Source of the DNA: Clostridiales bacterium
GTDB taxonomy: Bacteria; Bacillota; Sulfobacillia; CADDZV01
Assembly (NCBI GenBank): GCA_902812875.1
Contig: CADDZV010000013.1
Span: forward strand, 1-32,430
Reading direction: 5' to 3'
DNA length: 32,430 nt
A model generated the notes under the pieces. It made no database searches, was not told the DNA's origin, and worked only from the letters and a program-made list of their open reading frames with translations. Position numbers and translations under genes: made by a program. Each line of letters begins with the position of its first letter. Within the stretch, counting starts at the first letter, position 1. Below are positions 7,955 through 32,430 of the stretch, piece after piece.

Positions 7955-8824
7955 TCACGCGGGTGCGGTTTTTTGTGTCAGCACCAGTTTGTCGACGACG
8001 GTGGCCATAAACTCGGCGTTGCTCGGCCGGTCAGCAGCAGCATCGCGGCCGAATATCCAGTTTACCCGCTCCGGGTTGCCGCGCTCCCACGCCAGGGCGA
8101 TGGCATGGCGGATGGCCCGTTCCACCCGGTTGGGGGTTGTCCCGTAACGTTCTGCTACGGCAGGGTAGATATCCCTGCTGATGGTAGTAATCTTGCCGCG
8201 TTTGGCCACCATCACCATGATCGCATGCCGCAGATAGGCATAACCGCGAATATGTGCCGGAATGCCAATTTCCTGCATGATCAGCGTGACCTGTCTTTCC
8301 AGGTCTTCTTCCTGCGAGTGGTTGGGCGGTACCGCCGCCGCGGTGCGAGGTTTTTCGCGGGCAATTTGCCTGATCCGCTCCGTAAGCGTATCGAGGTCGA
8401 ACGGTTTCACGATGAAATAATCTGCTCCGAGCTCGGCGGCCCGGCGGGCGGAATCCTCCCGCCCGAAGGCGGTAAACATGATCACGTGTGGCGGGGGATT
8501 GAGACCCGATTCACGTATAGCTTCCAGCACCGCGATGCCATCGAGAAGTGGCAGCACCAGGTCCAGAATGACTACTTCCGGCTGGTGCTCGCGTATCAGT
8601 CGCACGGTCTCGGCGCCGTTGTAGGCAGCCCCTACGCATTCCATGTCGTCCTGGGCGTTTATGGCTCTGTCGAGCAAGGCACAAAGGTCACGGTTGTCGT
8701 CGGCAACCAGCACCCGCAATCGATTGGTCGCTCCTGTTGCCGATCGTGGCAGTCCCATCGCATATACCTTTCGGTTTTCGGATTCGGCAAAATCCTGTCT
8801 GGGAAGGGTTTCTGGTCGCGCCAT
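7955..8824 (-). CDS. spo0A: Sporulation transcription factor Spo0A
   Basis: A 289-residue response regulator. The receiver domain begins near residue 36 (RLRVLVADDN) with acidic pair Asp42/Asp43, phosphoacceptor Asp88 in VVILDLVLPLLDG, Thr118 and Lys140. A linker follows, then the Spo0A C-terminal DNA-binding domain from about residue 172 (LIMQEIGIPAHIRGYAYLRH, ISRDIYPAVAERYGTTPNRV, ERAIRHAIALAWERGN). Phosphorylated Spo0A binds 0A boxes and commits the cell to sporulation. The frame is open to 8887, but ATG 8824 is chosen because GAGGAGG lies 9 nt upstream and because the SigH-like promoter at 8880-8907 would start transcription upstream of 8824. About 35 extra residues precede the receiver domain, longer than in Bacillus. 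spoIVB is not adjacent in this window, unlike in many relatives. Confidence 0.97.
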   Translation of the reverse strand: MARPETLPRQDFAESENRKVYAMGLPRSATGATNRLRVLVADDNRDLCALLDRAINAQDDMECVGAAYNGAETVRLIREHQPEVVILDLVLPLLDGIAVLEAIRESGLNPPPHVIMFTAFGREDSARRAAELGADYFIVKPFDLDTLTERIRQIAREKPRTAAAVPPNHSQEEDLERQVTLIMQEIGIPAHIRGYAYLRHAIMVMVAKRGKITTISRDIYPAVAERYGTTPNRVERAIRHAIALAWERGNPERVNWIFGRDAAADRPSNAEFMATVVDKLVLTQKTAPA

Positions 8825-8879
8825 GGTAGGATACCTCCTCAGCCACGTTCGATTAACTATTTCCAGTCGAACAGGCAAA

Positions 8880-8907
8880 AGCTTCAAGCTACTTTATAAA
8901 AATTCCT
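8880..8907 (-). promoter_or_regulatory. SigH-like promoter of spo0A
   Basis: On the minus strand GCAGGAATT (8909-8901) fits the SigH -35 consensus RNAGGAWWW. It is followed by 12 bp and then TTGAAGCT (8887-8880), matching the GAA core of RNNGAATWW imperfectly. The predicted start would leave a leader of about 45-50 nt before the spo0A ATG. In B. subtilis the sporulation promoter of spo0A is SigH-dependent, which supports the assignment. Confidence 0.5.
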
Positions 8908-21454: not shown

Positions 21455-21480
21455 GGCGGGGCAGAAAGCCCCGCCTTTTT
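21455..21480 (+). terminator. Intrinsic terminator after the Hsp20 gene
   Basis: GGCGGGGC and GCCCCGCC form a perfect 8-bp stem with a 5-nt AGAAA loop, followed by TTTTT. It overlaps by one base the stop of the convergent gerC-like gene. Confidence 0.9.
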
Positions 21481-22709
21481 CATGGTCCGGTGGCCCCGCG
21501 CCAGCGGCCCTGTTCGAGTACTTTGGTCTGCACATGTATTGTGATGACCGCGTCTTTGTACGCCTGGTCCCAGTCCAGATTGATAAAGTCACGGTAATTC
21601 TGAGCTTGCATGCGGAGCCCGAGGCCAAACACGTCCGACTGAACCGCTTGTGTCAAGGCCACCGTATCGCCAATGACTTTGGCAAAATGTTGGTTCATCT
21701 GGGTGGTAAAGCGGGCAATGTTGGTAGGGTTCATGAAGTTCAGGCTGGTGGTGGATTCCGGTACCTTGACCGACATGGCCATGCCTATATCTATATGCAC
21801 CCGGCCATCCTGCACCCGGTATTGGTAGGACCGGCGGACGCGGGCGATCTCCACGGTAACCTTGCCTTGGTCCACCTGGACATCGCACCTTTGTCCGCCA
21901 TGGCCGCCGATCAGGAGGGTGGCGGACATGCCCTGCTGTTGGTCGAGTTTTCCTACCATTTTATCGCCGTGGAACAGGGCCAGGCCGTCGTACCGGTAAG
22001 TCACGGTGCTCTTGGACATGTCTGCGGATTGTTCTCCGCCTCGGCCGGATCCGGACGAGCCGCCCTTGCCAGGGGGGCTGCCGCCCATTGTCTGGACCGC
22101 AGGTGCAGCCTCCAGCATGACCACTACCGGTTCCACGCCGGGGTCAAAATAGTCAGCGACGTTCTTGAAAAGGAAGGAAATCGGAGCCTCGCCGCGTTGG
22201 GCGAGGGAATTGACGGTATCCCACATGGCCATGGCAGCCAGCGGTTCCTCCGCAGGGGCGACGTCGAAAAGATCCCTGGCCGGCCCGGCGGTGACCACCA
22301 TGATCAGCCGCGCGGAGATGTAGTGCTCACGCAAAAGAGCGTCCCAGATCGGCAGAAGACCGCGGCGGGCGATGTCTTCCGATACCGCCACCAGCATGAG
22401 CTGGCCAAGGTACACGTTGAACTCCAGCTGGTTTTCTGCCTCCTTGAGCGCGGCCAGGAATGAATCCCCTTCGCCAGTGACGTGGAGGCCGGTAAGGGCA
22501 CCGCCTCCACCGGCGGCTCTTCCGGCACCAGTGGCCACCGCACTTGGAATTGAGAGCGTGACACTGTAGTTCCCGCCCGGGGCCGGATCCACGCCCAAGC
22601 CGAGAACGAAATCTGTTTTCTCTGTTTCCACTTCGTCCCAGCAGCCGGAAACCAGGGTGGCCAGGGCAACGGCGAGCAACAGCGCGGCGAGGCGGTATAG
22701 GAATTTCAT
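21480..22709 (-). CDS. Ger(x)C family spore germination lipoprotein (GerC subunit)
   Basis: A lipoprotein of about 409 residues with signal peptide and lipobox LVSGC (Cys23), followed by WDEVETEKTDFVLGLGVDPA, the usual GerC start (C-W-D-x-x-E). The C-terminal domain shows FMNPTNIARFTTQMNQHFAK and VQSDVFGLGLRMQAQN, typical of the family. GerC is the lipidated subunit of nutrient germinant receptors in the spore inner membrane, placed on the outer face. A Gly/Ser-rich insertion (about residues 197-225) is a likely flexible loop. ATG 22709 is preferred over 22736 because it starts the signal peptide and follows AAGGTGGG; it overlaps the gerB-type stop by 4 bp. Confidence 0.92.
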   Translation of the reverse strand: MKFLYRLAALLLAVALATLVSGCWDEVETEKTDFVLGLGVDPAPGGNYSVTLSIPSAVATGAGRAAGGGGALTGLHVTGEGDSFLAALKEAENQLEFNVYLGQLMLVAVSEDIARRGLLPIWDALLREHYISARLIMVVTAGPARDLFDVAPAEEPLAAMAMWDTVNSLAQRGEAPISFLFKNVADYFDPGVEPVVVMLEAAPAVQTMGGSPPGKGGSSGSGRGGEQSADMSKSTVTYRYDGLALFHGDKMVGKLDQQQGMSATLLIGGHGGQRCDVQVDQGKVTVEIARVRRSYQYRVQDGRVHIDIGMAMSVKVPESTTSLNFMNPTNIARFTTQMNQHFAKVIGDTVALTQAVQSDVFGLGLRMQAQNYRDFINLDWDQAYKDAVITIHVQTKVLEQGRWRGATGP

Positions 22710-23803
22710 TTTCCCACCTTCTCCCGCGCCCGCCACTCAGCTACCAGTACCAGCACAAGGGCAATGCCAAGTTCGGTTACCAGGCTGAGCCTCGTCACGG
22801 CCGTGGCGAGGCTGCGGGCCTGCGACTGCGTAGACGGCATGAGGGCGATGAGTGCCACCACGGCGGCTAGCGGCAGGCTCACGAGCCGCCGCTCAGGGAT
22901 GCCAGTCAGTTCCGTCATGCCGGCCACGGCGGCAGTGAACAGGGCACAATAACGCGTGTACAGGGCCACGATCCACGTCATCAGGAAAATGGTTTCCGTC
23001 CGCTCGATGAGTCGGCCGGGCAGGTGGGCAGCTTTGACGGCATCAAGAATGGGAAAGGTGTAATGGGGGGTGGAAGCGCCCAGTACCCCGACCGTAACCA
23101 GGGCGGAGACGGTGACGGCCATGCCCATGACTCCTGCGCCTACCGCGATACTACGGGCGGCTTTCTGCGGCTGGGCCACATGGGCGATGAAAAAATACAG
23201 GGCTTCCAGACCGGGCACCTGCACGGTGCCCATGGCCATACCCTCCAGAATCGGGACCAGATGGCCGGTCAGTACAGGCCGCACGTGCAGGGGGTTGAAG
23301 TTTTCCAGGGCCGTCAGGGCTGCCCCCATTCCCAGCGCCAGCAAGAGCGGAGCCAGCATTACGTTCATGCGGGCCATGGCCAGTATGGGCTGCTGGGCCG
23401 CATACCAACTGGTGACTACCAGAATGAGAACGATGAGCCACGCGGGCGTCAGGGCCAAAAGGGCAGACCTGACTACCTCTGTGGTCATGCGCACGGTGAT
23501 GGCACTGGCCACAAGACAGTAAGCCGCCAGGACAAAGCTCAGGAGCCACCCCAGGGGCCGCCCGAGCAGGACCTGGGCGAAGCGCACGACCGTCTGGCCG
23601 GGAAAGTTACGGGCCAGCACCCCAATCAATGTTCCGGCCACGGCGGTGACAAGACCCACGGCAGCCATAAATAGCCAGGCATCGCGCCCGGCAATGCGGT
23701 AGGCATCCGGCATGTGCACCAGCAGGCCGCCGCCAGCCAGTATGCTGATCACGAACCAGGCCAGTTCGCCCGGGCCCAGGCCCCGTTCACGCTGCTGGTT
23801 CAT
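22706..23803 (-). CDS. GerB-type spore germination permease (APC superfamily)
   Basis: A 365-residue membrane protein with ten hydrophobic segments, starting with LGPGELAWFVISILAGGGLL, as GerAB-family proteins do, and containing ARNFPGQTVVRFAQVLLGRP and PGLEALYFFIAHVAQPQKAA. GerB subunits bind the germinant (amino acid or other nutrient) within an APC-type fold and pass the signal to GerA. The germinant cannot be predicted. ATG 23803 overlaps the gerA stop by 4 bp and the stop overlaps gerC by 4 bp, so the three subunits are translationally linked. Confidence 0.93.
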   Translation of the reverse strand: MNQQRERGLGPGELAWFVISILAGGGLLVHMPDAYRIAGRDAWLFMAAVGLVTAVAGTLIGVLARNFPGQTVVRFAQVLLGRPLGWLLSFVLAAYCLVASAITVRMTTEVVRSALLALTPAWLIVLILVVTSWYAAQQPILAMARMNVMLAPLLLALGMGAALTALENFNPLHVRPVLTGHLVPILEGMAMGTVQVPGLEALYFFIAHVAQPQKAARSIAVGAGVMGMAVTVSALVTVGVLGASTPHYTFPILDAVKAAHLPGRLIERTETIFLMTWIVALYTRYCALFTAAVAGMTELTGIPERRLVSLPLAAVVALIALMPSTQSQARSLATAVTRLSLVTELGIALVLVLVAEWRAREKVGK

Positions 23804-25494
23804 ACGGGGGGACGGTCACCGCGGGAACGCCTGCGTTCGCCGTACGCAGACTCGTGGCTCTGTTTGATGAGTTCCTGGGGGCCACGGATCCTGATGCGCT
23901 CCTTCCGCTCCCACACCGGGCGCACAATGATGGGGGTGCGGGACCGCCAGGAAACCGGCGGTACGAGTCCAGCCAAATACGGCATGCCAAGCGAGGTGAG
24001 GCCGGCCATGTGCGTAACCATGACCAGGCCGGCGAGCACAAACCCCAGAAGGCCGAACACCCCTGACGCTAGCAGGATCCCCCACTGCACGAGGCGCAGA
24101 ACCTGTTGGAACTCCACGTTCACGACGGCGTAGTTTGACAAGGTGGCGGCGGCTACAACGATCACTGCCATGGGCGCGACTATGCCCGCCTGCACGGCGG
24201 CCTGACCCATGATCAAAGCTCCCACGATGCCGATGGTGGCGCCGATTTGGCCGGGTATGCGGATCGCTCCTTCCCGGATGATCTCCATGGCAAACATCAT
24301 CAGTCCTACCTCCACCAGAGGCGGGAAGGGCACCGAAGCCCGGGCGGCTTCCAGCGTGATGAGAAGATCGGTGGGAATGGCCTGGGGGTGATAGGACGTG
24401 AGTGCGATGAACAGCCCCGGACCCGCTACGGCCAAAAGCCAGGCAATGGAGCGGATCGAACGCATGTATGTCGAAAAGCCGGGTCGGTGGTAGTAGTCTT
24501 CGGGCGAAGTGAGAAGGTCGTGTATCGTGGCCGGCACCAAAAGCACAAACGGCGAGCCGTTCACGATGATGGCGATGCGGCCCTGGGCGAGGCCCATGAC
24601 CACGTTGTCGGGCCGCTCGGTCACCTGCATCTGCGGGAACGGTGACATGGGCCGGTCTTCGATGAACTGTTCTATGTAACCGTCCGCCGGGACGATGTCG
24701 GTGTCGATCATGGCGAGGCGGCGCTGTACCTCGCCCACGACGTCCGGGTCGGCAATGCCCTGGAAGTACATTACGGCCACCGGGGTCTGCGAGCGGCGGC
24801 CGATACGCGTCAGGCGCACTTTCAGATCTGGTACCGGCATCCGCTGCCGGATGAGAGCGATGTTGATCAGGGCCTGCTCCACGAACCCGTCACGCGGGCC
24901 TCTGGTTACTGTTTCGGCCATGGGTTCCGTGACGTCCCGTCCCGGCCATTTTTTCACGTCGAAGACCAGCGCCCTGGGCACCCCGTCCACCAGCACGGCA
25001 GCTTCGCCTGTCATCACGTCTGAGACCAGGCCGCTCAATTCGTCCTCGGCTTCAAACTGCGGCACCGTAGCCCCCGACTGTTCCAGGCCGGCCCGGATGG
25101 CGTCTTCGTATCCGGTTTCCGCCCGGCCGATGCGGACGAGATGCGTGAGGGTGTTCATCACCGCATCCGCCACCAGGTCTTTCTCCGGCAGGGTTTGGAC
25201 AAGAATGAGGGCCGCCCGCGGCCCGTCGCCGCCGATGCGGAAATGCCGGACGACAACGTCGTCGCAGTGGTCCGTGGCCTGCTGAACCAGTGCCAGGTTG
25301 CGGTCGAGGTCAGGCCCAAGGCGCGTGTGCGGATCCGGCCCCCCTTGCTCCAGGGCGGCCAGGGAAGCCAGCAGGCCCTCGATGTCAGCCCGTACCCGGC
25401 GGGCATGCAGGTAGAGGTCCCTGGCCTGGCCCGCCGGCCCGCCGGGGTGTTCGTGGCGTGTGCTGCGTTCACTGCCTGACATCACGCGTGCCAA
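23800..25494 (-). CDS. GerA-type spore germination receptor subunit
   Basis: A 564-residue protein of the GerA family. The N-terminal soluble domain (about 1-330) includes DAVMNTLTHLVRIG, TGEAAVLVDGVPRALVFDVK and the conserved block with DGFVEQALINIALIRQRMP. The next block, GLAQGRIAIIVNGSPFVLLV, precedes four to five membrane segments (PPLVEVGLMMFAMEIIREGA, GQIGATIGIVGALIMGQAAV). GerA subunits form an oligomeric ion channel opened by germinants. TTG 25494 has GGGGGA about 7 nt upstream; GTG 25485 and ATG 25482 are alternatives. It is first in the A-B-C operon and has a SigG-like promoter candidate directly upstream. Confidence 0.94.
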   Translation of the reverse strand: MARVMSGSERSTRHEHPGGPAGQARDLYLHARRVRADIEGLLASLAALEQGGPDPHTRLGPDLDRNLALVQQATDHCDDVVVRHFRIGGDGPRAALILVQTLPEKDLVADAVMNTLTHLVRIGRAETGYEDAIRAGLEQSGATVPQFEAEDELSGLVSDVMTGEAAVLVDGVPRALVFDVKKWPGRDVTEPMAETVTRGPRDGFVEQALINIALIRQRMPVPDLKVRLTRIGRRSQTPVAVMYFQGIADPDVVGEVQRRLAMIDTDIVPADGYIEQFIEDRPMSPFPQMQVTERPDNVVMGLAQGRIAIIVNGSPFVLLVPATIHDLLTSPEDYYHRPGFSTYMRSIRSIAWLLAVAGPGLFIALTSYHPQAIPTDLLITLEAARASVPFPPLVEVGLMMFAMEIIREGAIRIPGQIGATIGIVGALIMGQAAVQAGIVAPMAVIVVAAATLSNYAVVNVEFQQVLRLVQWGILLASGVFGLLGFVLAGLVMVTHMAGLTSLGMPYLAGLVPPVSWRSRTPIIVRPVWERKERIRIRGPQELIKQSHESAYGERRRSRGDRPPV

Positions 25495-26735: not shown

Positions 26736-26918
26736 ATGTTGTTGAAAGCTTATTTGTGGTGGGAGAACCTGAAGGCACGGCTGCGGCGCGAAGACGGCCA
26801 GGCGCTAACGGAGTACGCGATTATAATCGCACTCATAGCGGTAGTCGTGATCGGCACGATAGCCGTTCTGGGCAACAAGATATTGGCCGTCTTTCAGAAC
26901 ATTGTAAACGGCTTGTGA
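26736..26918 (+). CDS. flp: Flp/Fap-type major pilin
   Basis: A 60-residue type IVb prepilin. After a basic leader, the processing site is G21|Q22 in EDGQALTEYAII, with Glu at mature +5 and Tyr at +6 as in Flp pilins, followed by one hydrophobic helix (IIIALIAVVVIGTIAVLG). The mature pilin would have 39 residues. It is the structural subunit of Tad pili, used for surface adhesion. A very strong AAAGGAGGGGGAGG precedes ATG 26736. The prepilin peptidase (TadV/CpaA) is not in this window. Its stop overlaps the TadE start (GTGA). Confidence 0.93.
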   Translation: MLLKAYLWWENLKARLRREDGQALTEYAIIIALIAVVVIGTIAVLGNKILAVFQNIVNGL

Positions 26919-27307
26919 AGCGTTCCTGGGCCTCAGGCCAGTCCCTTGTGGAACTGGCCCTTATTTTGCCTTTGTTGCTTTTGATCCTCCTGGGCACCGT
27001 GGAGTTTGGCCTCATGTATTATGACTATATCGCCATCGAAAACGGTGCCCGGGAGGGTGCGCGCTATGGCGTCGTTTTGGACAATCCGTGCAGCCAGGAT
27101 GATCAAAATGTAATTGCCTTCCGCGTACGAGAGGTTATTCCGGGGTACCTCAACAATCCTGCCATCACCGTGTCGTGCAACCAAGACGAGAATTTGCTTA
27201 CCGTGGTGGTCACCTATGATTTTCACCCCTTTGACCCCATCCTGGCAGGAGTACTCGGCCGAGTGATCCGGCTCAAGGCCCAGGTTACGCTCACGCTGGA
27301 GGAATAA
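26915..27307 (+). CDS. tadE: TadE-like pseudopilin
   Basis: A 130-residue minor pilin-like protein. The N-terminus SGQSLVELALILPLLLLILL has a prepilin-type site G8|Q9 with Glu13 at +5, then FGLMYYDYIAIENGAREGAR, the standard TadE block. Two Cys (in NPCSQD and VSCNQD) could form a disulfide in the extracellular part. GTG 26915 overlaps the pilin stop by 4 nt (GTGA) and has no strong Shine-Dalgarno, so translation is probably coupled to the abundant pilin message. The frame is open from 26756 only as an overlap with flp. Confidence 0.9.
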   Translation: MKRSWASGQSLVELALILPLLLLILLGTVEFGLMYYDYIAIENGAREGARYGVVLDNPCSQDDQNVIAFRVREVIPGYLNNPAITVSCNQDENLLTVVVTYDFHPFDPILAGVLGRVIRLKAQVTLTLEE

Positions 27308-27310
27308 GCC

Positions 27311-28372
27311 GTGGGTAGGACGGTAGTGTGGAAGCAGGTGAAACACCAAGCTGGCCAAGTGACGGTGCTGATCGCCTTGGCTATGGTGGTTATGCTCGGC
27401 CTGGCTGCCGTGGTGGTGGACGGGGAACTTTTGTTCGTTACCCGCCAGCGGCTGCAGGATGTGGCTGACATGGCCGCCCTGGCGGCTGCGAAAGCCATGG
27501 TGGAGAATGGCCGAGACGACGTCATCAGCGTTGTCGAAAGAACAGTGGCAGCCAACTTCCCCGGGGCGGCGGTCGTCACCAGCACGGCTGGTGGCCAGTG
27601 CCAATCTGGTGGCGACCATGAGGAGTGGGAAAACGAAAACGAAGACACGCATGACGGAAACCATCCGTACACGGTGCAGGTGTTCGTGTGTGAGAGCGAC
27701 ACGCAGGTGTCGGTGACGCTGACGCGTGCGGATGTTGGCTTTGTGTTTGCAGGGCTCTTTGGCCAGCAGAAGGCGACTGTGAGCGCGACCGCCACTGCCA
27801 AGGCTGACGTTCCTGGTAGCGTGTCTGGGAAAAATGTGCACATCGTCCCATGGGGAATTCGCTGGAACGACCAGTGGCAGTTTGGTCAGCCGGTCACATT
27901 GAAAGGCTGCGACGGCGGTGAAAACGGTTGCGACGGCCCAGGGAATTTCGGGGCCTTGCAACTCAATGATCCAGGCGGCCGGGACTATCGGGATATGATC
28001 TCCCGGGGGTACTCCGGTACTTTGAACGTCGGTGAGTTTGTGCCCACAGACCCAGGGCAAGATGTGGGGAATACGAAGAAAGGTCTGGATGATCTATTGG
28101 ACGAGCCTGCCAGCCAGGAATGCGTCCGCGCGAATGTACAGGACGCCGTGTTCGTAGTGGCACCGGTGGTGAAGTCGGCAGCAGGACCTGGCAAGACCGA
28201 AGTGAAAATCCAGGGCTTTGCGGGGTTTTGTTTGGACAAGGGTATGCAAGTCGATGGCAAGAATGTGGTCGGTACGTTTGTAGCGGGCTTTATACCAGGG
28301 GAATCCACGAACGATAACGGAAGTGACTATTACGGTCTGTGGGTTGTACATTTGGTGCCGAACCCACAGTGA
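27311..28372 (+). CDS. TadG-like pilus assembly protein
   Basis: A 353-residue protein with the TadE/G-like N-terminal segment: GQVTVLIALAMVVMLGLAAV (residues 15-34), followed by VDGELLFVTRQRLQDVADMA and ALAAAKAM. The position that holds Glu in TadE is hydrophobic, as usual for TadG. The extracellular part carries an acidic, His-containing insert (GDHEEWENENEDTHDGNH, about 101-118) and a domain common in Firmicute TadG-like proteins (GNFGALQLNDPGG, NVGEFVPTDPGQDVGNTKKG). Several cysteines (97, 127, 200, 207, 271, 307) may form disulfides. No von Willebrand domain was recognised. GTG 27311 follows GGAGGAATAA and lies 3 bp after the tadE stop. Confidence 0.85.
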   Translation: MGRTVVWKQVKHQAGQVTVLIALAMVVMLGLAAVVVDGELLFVTRQRLQDVADMAALAAAKAMVENGRDDVISVVERTVAANFPGAAVVTSTAGGQCQSGGDHEEWENENEDTHDGNHPYTVQVFVCESDTQVSVTLTRADVGFVFAGLFGQQKATVSATATAKADVPGSVSGKNVHIVPWGIRWNDQWQFGQPVTLKGCDGGENGCDGPGNFGALQLNDPGGRDYRDMISRGYSGTLNVGEFVPTDPGQDVGNTKKGLDDLLDEPASQECVRANVQDAVFVVAPVVKSAAGPGKTEVKIQGFAGFCLDKGMQVDGKNVVGTFVAGFIPGESTNDNGSDYYGLWVVHLVPNPQ

Positions 28373-28390: not shown

Positions 28391-29791
28391 ATGAGCCGGA
28401 GCCGGATATTACGCTACTACGTCATCCCAGTGGCAATCGGACTGTTGATCACCGCCCTGGCGTACCGTGCCCTGGCGCCGCGGCAGGTTAGCACCATGCA
28501 GCAGCTGGTGACGGTGCTGGCCGCGGCCCAGGACATCCCGGCCAAGGCCTTGATTACCAATTCCATGCTTGCGACCAGGCAGGTACCCGCGAACATGGTG
28601 GACCCGGACATGGTCACGCAGCCGCAGGAAGTGCTGGGGAAATATGCGGCCATGCCCATGGTACGGGGCGAGTTTATCCTGAAGAGCAAGATCGTATCGG
28701 TGGCCACTCCGCCTACGCTGTCGTACGACATCCCCAAGGGTCTGCGGGCGATGACCATCCGGGTGGACGAGATCACCGGTGTGGCCGGGTTCCCGGCGCC
28801 CGGAGACCGCATCGACATCATCGGCACCTTTGAGCCCCAGAACTCCACGGACGAACGGCGTACCCGCCTGATTGTGCAAGACATTCCTATCCTTGCTGTC
28901 GGCCAGAACGCGGTGCCGGTGACCGCCAACCAGGGTGGCGGCTCGGGTCCCAAAACGACGCCACTTGGGCAGTACACCTCGCTGACCATTGCCGTGACGC
29001 CGGAGCAAGCGGCGGCAATCGCCCTGGCGGAAGACTCTGGCAAGCTGCAGGTGCTTTTGCGGCCGGCCACCGACCTGGGCTTCTACCCGCCGGCGGATGT
29101 AACCCAGTCCCAGCTGTTCAAATCGACCTGGACGCCGGAGCTTTACCGTACTGAGGCCCAGCTGGAGATGTCTGTCGTGCTGATGGAAGTGGATACTGCG
29201 TCTTTGAGCGATCTTCTGCAGCATCTGCCGGCGGGATCCGAGTCCGTGACAGGAGCGGGCGGCGGGGAGGGTTTCTACTTCCACGAGACGCCGGACACCA
29301 CGTGGAACTCTCTCAATGCTCTGGTTCAGGCCGGCAAGGCCAAGGTGATCGACGAAAGCGACATTACCACCATAAACCGGCAGACGGCATCGTACTCGCG
29401 TTCGGCCCAGGCGAACTACGGGCAGCAGGTGGGCGGCCTGCAGATGAATTCGTGGGTGGAGGATGGGATTTTCCTGGACATCACGCCGGTGATCTACACC
29501 ACGCCGTTTATTGATATGCAGATGAATCTCGAACTGCAGTCGGTGGACTGGGTGCAGAGCGCCTCGCAGGCTGCAGTGCCGGTTCTGAATGACCGCCGCG
29601 CGCAGGCGGTAGTGCGTATAAATGAGGGGGAGGTCATCCTGGTGACGGGCATTGTGCGGCCGCAAGACCTGCAAAAACCGGCCAACGTGCTTGAGCGTGA
29701 CATATTGCCGTCTGGCGACATCAGCCCGGCTGTGCAGTCTGGCTCCCGGCAGCTCCTACTGGTCATCCTTTCTCGCCGGGATGTTCGGTAG
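28391..29791 (+). CDS. cpaB: CpaB/RcpC pilus assembly protein fused to a secretin-like C-terminal domain
   Basis: A 466-residue protein. Residues 10-28 are a membrane anchor. Residues 38-104 are a SAF domain (VTVLAAAQDIPAKALITNSM ... VRGEFILKSKI) and 110-235 the RcpC/CpaB domain (RAMTIRVDEITGVAGFPAPG, DRIDIIGTF). So far this is a full-length CpaB. From about 257 on it reads as a secretin: MSVVLMEVDTASLSDLLQ, then WNSLNALVQAGKAKVIDESD with ITTINRQTASY, then VEDGIFLDITPVIY, and VLNDRRAQAVVRINEGEVIL plus VTGIV ... LLLVILSRRDV. These correspond in order to the conserved blocks of PF00263. The fusion is not a frameshift artefact, since one open frame spans it. CpaB normally works with a separate secretin (CpaC/RcpA) in the outer membrane, which Firmicutes lack. 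ATG 28391 lies 18 bp after the tadG-like stop. Confidence 0.85.
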   Translation: MSRSRILRYYVIPVAIGLLITALAYRALAPRQVSTMQQLVTVLAAAQDIPAKALITNSMLATRQVPANMVDPDMVTQPQEVLGKYAAMPMVRGEFILKSKIVSVATPPTLSYDIPKGLRAMTIRVDEITGVAGFPAPGDRIDIIGTFEPQNSTDERRTRLIVQDIPILAVGQNAVPVTANQGGGSGPKTTPLGQYTSLTIAVTPEQAAAIALAEDSGKLQVLLRPATDLGFYPPADVTQSQLFKSTWTPELYRTEAQLEMSVVLMEVDTASLSDLLQHLPAGSESVTGAGGGEGFYFHETPDTTWNSLNALVQAGKAKVIDESDITTINRQTASYSRSAQANYGQQVGGLQMNSWVEDGIFLDITPVIYTTPFIDMQMNLELQSVDWVQSASQAAVPVLNDRRAQAVVRINEGEVILVTGIVRPQDLQKPANVLERDILPSGDISPAVQSGSRQLLLVILSRRDVR

Positions 29792-30655: not shown

Positions 30656-32149
30656 ATGCCGTCTTTGTACCAACGGCTGCACTCGACTGATGCTGCCTTG
30701 GGGAAAAAGAAACCTGCGGAGGCCACGCCGTTTGGTGTAGAGGCGGGGGAAGGACCAGCGGGCCCTGAACCTGACGTGGAAGGCCCGGGCGGGGAAAAAG
30801 CCCACCCGCCGGCCGGAGGCAGCGCCGCGCCGCCGGTTCCCGCCGAAGTGGTGGAGGAGACCAGGCTGGCGGTAAAGTGGCGGACGGTTCCGGATGCGCT
30901 CAAGGCTCGCGTGCAGCAGGAGCTCATTGAGGACCCCGATCTGGCGCCGGTGTTGCGGCGCCCGAGCCTGGGCAAAGACGAGCGCCGGGCGGTTGAGCTG
31001 AAAATTGCCTCCCTGGTCAATGAAGATCCCAGCCTGACCGCGGCTGAAAAAGAGCAATACACCACGCTTCTGGTAAACGAAATCCTCGGGTACGGTCCCA
31101 TCCAGGGGCTTTTGGACGATCCGACCGTCAGCGAGGTGATGGTAAACTCCCCCGACCACGTTTATGTGGAGCGGCGGGGCCTCATCGAGCGGGCACCGGT
31201 GCATTTCACCTCCGAACAGGAGATCATGCAGGTAATCGAAAAAATCGTCACGCCCCTAGGCCGGCGCATCGACGAGGCCAGCCCCATGGTGGACGCCCGT
31301 CTGCCGGACGGCTCGCGTGTGAATGCGGTGATTCCGCCTTTGGCCATCAAAGGCCCGACGATCACCATCCGCAAGTTTTCTGTGAAGCCGCTGGAGATGC
31401 CCGACCTCATCCGCATGGGCACGCTTTCTCCGGCGATGGCCACCCTTTTGGAAGCTTGTGTGGAAGGACGCTTGAACATCGTGGTGGCCGGGGGCACGGG
31501 TTCCGGCAAGACCACCACGTTGAATGTGCTCTCCCGGTTTATTCCGTCCAACGAGCGGATCATCACGATCGAAGACGCCGCCGAGCTGCAGCTGCAGCAG
31601 GAGCACGTGGTCTCCCTGGAAACCCGGCCGCCCAACATCGAGGGGAAAGGCGAGATCACGACGCGGCAGCTGGTGCGAAACGCTCTCCGCATGAGGCCCG
31701 ACCGGATTATCGTGGGCGAGGTCCGAGGCGGGGAGGCTCTGGACATGTTGCAGGCCATGAACACTGGTCACGAAGGAAGCCTCACTACTTTGCACTCCAA
31801 CTCGCCGCGGGATACGCTCTCGCGCCTTGAGACGATGGTGCTGATGGCGGGCATGGAGTTGCCGGTGCGGGCCATCCGGGAGCAGATCTCGTCGGCCCTC
31901 GACTTGATCGTTTACCAGCAGCGGCTACGGGACGGCTCCCGCCGCATCACGCACATCACGGAAGTACTGGGCATGGAGGGTGACACGATCCAGCTGCAGG
32001 ATCTCTTTGTGTTTGAGCAGGGTCCGCCCCTGCCCGACGGCCGGGTGACCGGCGAGTTCAAGGCCACTGGGATCAAGCCCACGTTTTTGGCCCGGTTCGA
32101 GACCAACGGCATCGTTCTGCCGCGGGACCTTTTTGCCGAGATTCATTAG
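30656..32149 (+). CDS. cpaF: CpaF/TadA secretion ATPase of the Tad system
   Basis: A 497-residue type II/IV secretion ATPase. A variable Pro/Gly-rich N-terminus (to about 65) precedes the N-terminal domain (EILGYGPIQGLLDDPTVSEV, VEDE-type region at 140-180) and the RecA core. The core has Walker A GGTGSGKTT (279-287), the Asp box ITIEDAAELQL (303-313), Walker B-type DRIIVGEVRGGEALDMLQ (349-366) and the His box GHEGSLTTLHSNSP (371-384). It is a cytoplasmic hexamer that drives pilin assembly and probably retraction. The ATG has GGAGG 5-6 nt upstream and follows cpaE without a gap. Confidence 0.96.
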   Translation: MPSLYQRLHSTDAALGKKKPAEATPFGVEAGEGPAGPEPDVEGPGGEKAHPPAGGSAAPPVPAEVVEETRLAVKWRTVPDALKARVQQELIEDPDLAPVLRRPSLGKDERRAVELKIASLVNEDPSLTAAEKEQYTTLLVNEILGYGPIQGLLDDPTVSEVMVNSPDHVYVERRGLIERAPVHFTSEQEIMQVIEKIVTPLGRRIDEASPMVDARLPDGSRVNAVIPPLAIKGPTITIRKFSVKPLEMPDLIRMGTLSPAMATLLEACVEGRLNIVVAGGTGSGKTTTLNVLSRFIPSNERIITIEDAAELQLQQEHVVSLETRPPNIEGKGEITTRQLVRNALRMRPDRIIVGEVRGGEALDMLQAMNTGHEGSLTTLHSNSPRDTLSRLETMVLMAGMELPVRAIREQISSALDLIVYQQRLRDGSRRITHITEVLGMEGDTIQLQDLFVFEQGPPLPDGRVTGEFKATGIKPTFLARFETNGIVLPRDLFAEIH

Positions 32150-32160
32150 GGGGGCTCTAT

Positions 32161-32430
32161 GTGGCAGAAGTCTTGTTGTTCGTAGGGCTGGCCATCAGCT
32201 TTACGTCAGCCGCGGCAATGGTGGCCAGGCTTTGGGAAGAACGCCCCCACATGCCGCGGCTGGAGCCCGTGGTGGCCCGGCGGTGGCGTCGGCGTGGGCA
32301 CGTGGCGGTGCCACGCGGCGACATCCAAACGCGGCGGGAAAAGTGGGAGCTGGAGCTGCGGCGGGCGGGCTGGAACCTGCAGGCACGCGAGTTCTTCCTG
32401 GTGTGGGGTGCCAGCCCTCTATTGGGGGTG
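32161..32430 (+). CDS. tadB: TadB-like pilus inner-membrane platform protein, N-terminal fragment (cut by window edge)
   Basis: The open frame from GTG 32161 reaches the window edge (90 codons). AGGGGGG lies 6 nt upstream; the overlapping ATG at 32160 stops after eight codons. The product begins with a membrane helix (EVLLFVGLAISFTSAAAMVA), followed by an Arg-rich linker and WELELRRAGWNLQAREFFLV, which matches the L-x-x-AG-x-x-x-x-x-x-EF pattern before the second helix of TadB/TadC proteins. Position directly after cpaF is the normal place of tadB. The T2SSF core domain is outside the window. Confidence 0.8.
   Translation, partial: MAEVLLFVGLAISFTSAAAMVARLWEERPHMPRLEPVVARRWRRRGHVAVPRGDIQTRREKWELELRRAGWNLQAREFFLVWGASPLLGV

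Follow-up and report, generated by a model that had tools for sequence, protein, structure and literature searches.

The window analysed here is a stretch of 32,430 nucleotides (contig CADDZV010000013.1 of assembly GCA_902812875.1), which carries towards its end a Tad operon with the order flp-tadE-tadG-cpaB::secretin-cpaE-cpaF-tadB-tadC (Table 1). The gene in the cpaB position is one uninterrupted frame that encodes a transmembrane helix, a SAF domain and an RcpC domain, followed by a near-complete secretin C-domain. The window ends within tadB; on contig C38 the end of cpaF and the start of tadB appear again, with a few differences, before that contig continues with tadB and tadC. Because of this continuation the Tad system looks complete, and it has all the components of a Tad (type IVc) cluster (Flp, TadE/G, CpaB, CpaE, CpaF, TadB and TadC). 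The last part of the window, from about 32090 to 32430, shares roughly 340 bases with the end of G000:C38, a few differences aside, which suggests that strain variation broke the assembly inside tadB. No receiver domain was found in the 282-residue CpaE; most of its neighbours in related loci have about 390-500 residues, and several CpaE proteins there start with a receiver-like domain.

Table 1. Features of the Tad operon and of the CpaB-secretin fusion; residue numbers refer to the fusion protein.
Feature	Position in window	Strand	Evidence
Flp pilin, 60 aa	26736-26918	+	PF04964, 32.4 bits at 26811-26912; ORF
TadE (minor pilin-like), GTG start overlapping flp stop	26915-27307	+	PF07811, 63 bits
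TadG-like protein	27311-28372	+	PF13400, 36 bits
CpaB::secretin fusion, 466 aa	28391-29791	+	ORF; Pfam, NCBIfam and phmmer matches
N-terminal transmembrane anchor (residues 3-28)	28397-28474	+	AlphaFold-model helix; sequence
SAF domain (residues 41-101)	28511-28693	+	PF08666, 38 bits
RcpC domain (residues 110-224)	28718-29062	+	PF16976, 93 bits; 9gzr RcpC is top Foldseek match of full model
Low-confidence linker (residues 226-255)	29066-29155	+	pLDDT <50 at 226-250
Secretin C-domain (residues 256-464)	29156-29782	+	PF00263; profile to RcpA 8odn; AlphaFold model; Foldseek
Segment between last two strands (residues 420-452)	29648-29746	+	PxLGxxPxLGxLF loop motif absent; alignment position and PMC8134430
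CpaE/TadZ-type MinD ATPase, 282 aa	29807-30655	+	PF10609/PF01656
CpaF/TadA motor ATPase	30656-32149	+	PF00437, 233 bits
tadB start, cut by contig end	32161-32430	+	Continues on contig C38; PF00482 matches there

A second Tad cluster of the same genome, on contig C2, has a stand-alone 227-residue CpaB lacking a secretin domain (L144:6319-7002, minus strand), its own CpaE, CpaF and TadB/TadC, and a sub-threshold Flp-like match. The window also carries Spo0A (7955-8887, minus strand) and, near the Tad genes on the opposite strand, GerA, spore permease and GerAC genes (21480-25494, minus strand). An origin of the contig from a diderm contaminant is ruled out by the presence of Spo0A and the gerA-type operon and by its closest relatives, which are same-class genomes without Omp85.

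The SAF, RcpC and Secretin matches of the fusion all lie above the curated Pfam cut-offs, the last covering residues 310-429 (53.3 bits, E = 3e-14; cut-off 27.5). NCBIfam assigns residues 10-240 to CpaB (TIGR03177, 162 bits; cut-off 71) and gives weaker, sub-threshold matches of the C-terminal half to four secretin models (PilQ, GspD, MshL and SctC). Against the PDB, phmmer pairs the first half with RcpC (9gzr) and the second with PilQ and RcpA; a profile built from nine fused C-domains has Pseudomonas aeruginosa RcpA (8odn) as its top PDB match, with nearly the whole profile aligned (1.4e-11). A DNA-level profile search across the 1.85-Mb genome returned the fusion gene as its sole PF00263 match (6.2e-15). 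The original prediction, made from the sequence of the window, held that one frame contains a complete CpaB/RcpC protein and a secretin C-domain; the open 466-residue frame and the Pfam, NCBIfam and PDB-profile matches bear this out, and the C-terminal half does match a secretin profile. The protein therefore combines the N-terminal anchor, SAF and RcpC domains of the CpaB/RcpC family with the above-cut-off PF00263 match of the secretin superfamily. It lacks the PS00875 tail or conserved amphipathic helical loop of secretins, and it lacks what defines CpaC/RcpA (separate gene, signal peptide and N-domain), sitting fused behind CpaB; a Pfam scan of the fusion found neither PF13629 nor BON. A scan of viral contigs gave no match, and a BFVD search gave one strong match only.

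The AlphaFold2 model of the full protein (12 homologues) has two folded parts joined by a low-confidence linker at residues 226-250. By comparison with the CpaC proteins L103 and L105, the linker region (226-255) stands where RcpC has its C-terminal hairpin and CpaC its N-domain. Modelled alone as a monomer (nine sequences), the C-domain reached a pLDDT of 88.7 and a pTM of 0.85, and its 35 best PDB matches by Foldseek are all secretins (type II, III and IV systems, RcpA included). The TM-scores, at 0.32-0.47 by query length and with large rmsd, are modest, perhaps because the comparison sets a free monomer against subunits drawn from rings. The column scan and the model indicate that the fused domains retain, in order, their four long barrel strands and the strand that closes the barrel. 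The C-terminal half is thus predicted to have the secretin core fold, as originally supposed, and not an unrelated one. The limits of the secretin block need one correction: the block is secretin from its first strand at residue 256 to its last at 464, and within it the loop at 420-452, alone, is not secretin-like as judged by alignment. The departure from the secretin signature at T419-G420 that had been pointed out is real.

That loop corresponds, by alignment position, to the segment through which secretins contact the outer membrane with an amphipathic helix (PMC8134430; PMC10653833), and we equated the motif PxLGxxPxLGxLF with this segment on the same basis. The motif occurs in 0 of 13 fused domains and in 41 of 43 other secretins, among them all six planctomycete fusions. 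By column, the largest drop in hydrophobicity falls in the loop segment (the C-terminal end, with few fused residues, was set aside) and the gate-hairpin segment is second in hydrophobicity change; the core strands remain.

In a protein search of 100 relatives, all of the same class, 12 genomes (the present one among them) had full-length fusions; the other class members have a stand-alone CpaB. The same 12, from 11 genera, were returned by a class-wide search of 154 genomes with the C-domain profile. Some fused homologues score below the PF00263 cut-off yet match the fused C-domain profile (A2). In the phylum, 91 of 398 genomes match this profile; G480, a genome from outside the class, combines the same fusion with the same gene order. 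All 13 of these diverse genomes retain an uninterrupted full-length domain, including the last strand. As 11 further class genomes and one non-class genome share the architecture, chance or a frameshift artefact is ruled out. The original prediction had looked to other Bacillota Tad operons for the fusion and for any separate secretin; the fusion recurs in those 11 genomes and G480, and in the Bacillota loci examined a separate secretin accompanies cpaB in the diderms and not in the class. We note that a partial ordinary secretin lies on a 5-kb contig of another genome (G010:C18:4838-5095, L082), where it is probably contamination.

In diderm Bacillota, cpaB is followed by a separate secretin gene in 14 of the 14 loci examined, within about 450 bases; in every fetched stretch in which cpaE was located, it comes next after the secretin gene. 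Class loci lack a separate secretin, and in each one where cpaE was located it lies directly behind cpaB, with or without the fusion. As cpaE stands directly behind the fusion, against cpaB-cpaC-cpaE in the diderms, the fusion replaces the cpaB-cpaC pair and drops the N-terminal part of CpaC. The two diderm CpaC proteins that were scanned have PF13629 and BON before the secretin domain (BON strong in L105, weak in L103). In the CpaB tree, the fusions and the stand-alone proteins of the class form one clade (SH-aLRT 90) in which fused and unfused are intermixed, and monophyly of the fused proteins is not rejected (p-AU 0.433); the simplest reading is a single fusion event with several later losses. 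In the secretin tree, all 13 fused domains group together as one clade (SH-aLRT 100), which sits on a long branch. Direct descent beside the CpaC of diderm Bacillota was not recovered (constraint p-AU 0.0185, with the long branch), and because the tree does not place the fused domains there, we infer CpaC as the source from gene order and from RcpA as the top profile match. The two-membrane ancestry raised in the original prediction is well supported, since diderm Bacillota have cpaB and cpaC side by side where the class has one fused gene. For the two closest fused proteins (L021 and L023, 68% identity), the secretin part has a dN/dS of 0.31 against 0.14-0.17 for the CpaB parts, values that are rough because synonymous sites are near saturation; in this one pair, constraint on the secretin domain is weaker than on the CpaB parts but present.

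Fusions L053-L059, from Planctomycetota and uncultured MAGs, likewise hold CpaB and secretin in one frame. Unlike the present protein, they have 713-781 residues, extra sequence between the parts, a full PF00263 match at 147 bits and the loop. They group with separate planctomycete CpaC in the secretin tree, and this independent fusion shows that the two parts have been joined more than once.

Omp85 (BamA family) was found in none of 101 class genomes, including the present one at 96% completeness, with controls as expected. LpxC was not found in the present genome and occurs in 1 of 101 class genomes (G089:C288:15936-16745); this genome lacks the fusion, and its LpxC is probably contamination. 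Across the phylum, Omp85 is present in 101 of 398 genomes and in 87 of the 91 that are secretin-positive (Fisher p = 4e-67, relatedness ignored). Omp85 is missing from four secretin-positive genomes: G000, G013 and G480 all carry fusions, and the fourth, G484, belongs to a genus that otherwise has Omp85. Published work describes deep Bacillota, Symbiobacterium thermophilum among them, in which Gram-negative staining goes with the absence of lpx, lptA and bamA (PMC11448272). Judged by gene absence in MAGs, the carriers are probably monoderm, and the missing Omp85 and LpxC genes argue against the outer-membrane location that characterises the Tad secretin CpaC/RcpA. Of the outer-membrane markers named for checking in the original prediction (BamA or LPS genes), Omp85 and LpxC are missing from the present genome, and the prediction's doubt about an outer-membrane pore gains weight from this and from the loss of the membrane-contacting loop in 13 of 13 fused domains.

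P. aeruginosa RcpC is a dodecamer that docks the N-domain of RcpA and is proposed as a pilus guide, with a proposed 12:13 RcpC:RcpA mismatch (PMC12307814); the model of the Caulobacter machine has CpaI as a bridge between CpaB and CpaC (PMC13170226). The fusion resembles RcpC/CpaB (9gzr, PMC12307814) in having the transmembrane helix, SAF and RcpC in order, but where RcpC ends in a hairpin that docks the RcpA N-domain, the fusion chain continues into the secretin domain. Its likeness to the Tad secretin RcpA/CpaC (8odn, PMC10499894) lies in the C-domain, aligned end to end by the fused-domain profile; a secretin of this type is the gene adjoining cpaB in diderm Bacillota. Unlike RcpA/CpaC, the fusion lacks a signal peptide of its own, the N-domain and the amphipathic helical loop, and it would be anchored N-terminally via CpaB and is not expected in an outer membrane. 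The stand-alone CpaB of monoderm Tad systems shares the operon and the CpaB clade but has no secretin domain and about 227-300 residues.

We suggest that the protein is, on balance, probably a Tad alignment-complex subunit with a CpaC-derived secretin domain, captured around the loss of the outer membrane and remodelled as a soluble coaxial pilus collar. The secretin C-domain would have been inherited from the separate CpaC (RcpA) of a two-membrane ancestor, and around outer-membrane loss cpaB would have merged into one gene with the 3' part of cpaC next to it. We propose that the covalent link made two parts of CpaC dispensable, the signal peptide and the N-domain that docks CpaB in P. aeruginosa, and that both were lost for this reason. 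The N-terminal helix would anchor the fusion in the cell membrane with all domains outside, and about 12-15 subunits of this single type may assemble into a coaxial stack in which a secretin ring tops a CpaB ring at matched stoichiometry. TadB, TadC and CpaF would push the Flp pilus through this collar across the peptidoglycan, and the secretin ring would not be expected to insert into a membrane. Without a membrane to cross, a collar through peptidoglycan or an S-layer is the likeliest use, one that would fit the published RcpC-RcpA coaxial assembly (PMC12307814). Most class members and the Tad system on contig C2 lack a secretin domain, which is therefore not needed for every pilus; since neither the unfused relatives nor the second system needs it, we would see the collar as an aid or specialisation and not as a general need.

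The secretin domain could instead be a remnant from the diderm ancestor that is tolerated, slowly decays and has no ring function. It evolves faster than the CpaB part, the fused domains form a long-branch clade, and many relatives and the second Tad system do without it. Nevertheless, we consider decay unlikely: the domain is uninterrupted and full length with its last strand kept in 13 diverse genomes, the pair tested gives a dN/dS of 0.31, the prediction of the domain reaches pLDDT 89, and change is concentrated in the membrane loop and gate-hairpin segment, not evenly spread. Alteration of the gate hairpin in hydrophobicity, together with the missing N-domains that aid secretin assembly, would also suit a beta-rich domain repurposed as a module that binds the wall or an S-layer and holds the CpaB ring in place, with no barrel formed. 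We regard such a module as improbable, because the order of the four long barrel strands and of the closing strand is preserved and because a relative of the protein that precedes the domain assembles as a 12-mer ring (PMC12307814).

Secretins normally reside in outer membranes, and Gram-negative staining together with multilayered envelopes occurs in some deep Bacillota (PMC11448272); the fused secretin might then span an unrecognised outer membrane or outer lipid layer as a real pore. This seems very unlikely given that Omp85 is absent from all 101 class genomes tested, that the one LpxC-bearing genome has no fusion, and that the membrane-contacting loop is gone from every fusion while the planctomycete fusions keep it.

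Surveys describe secretins as absent from monoderm type IV filaments and as lost when Tad moved into monoderms (PMC6668835; PMC6916266); a CpaB-secretin fusion in genomes without Omp85 runs against this generalisation. The route of Firmicute pili across the peptidoglycan and the existence of a channel protein have been called unclear (PMC5007114), and the loop-stripped fused domain of these genomes is a concrete candidate for such a wall channel as well as a putative trace of outer-membrane loss. Our collar model suggests that secretin rings can outlast the outer membrane as cell-wall collars. More tentatively, and with slightly less than even confidence, we put forward the symmetry-matched, covalently built CpaB-secretin stack as a gated wall conduit in single-membrane bacteria and a fossil of outer-membrane loss. 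The fused 1:1 chain also raises the question of whether the proposed 13:12 RcpA:RcpC mismatch is necessary. The C-domains of L009, L021 and L023, which fall under PF00263 detection, are the most diverged of the fused secretin domains and may be of use in asking how far a secretin domain can decay.
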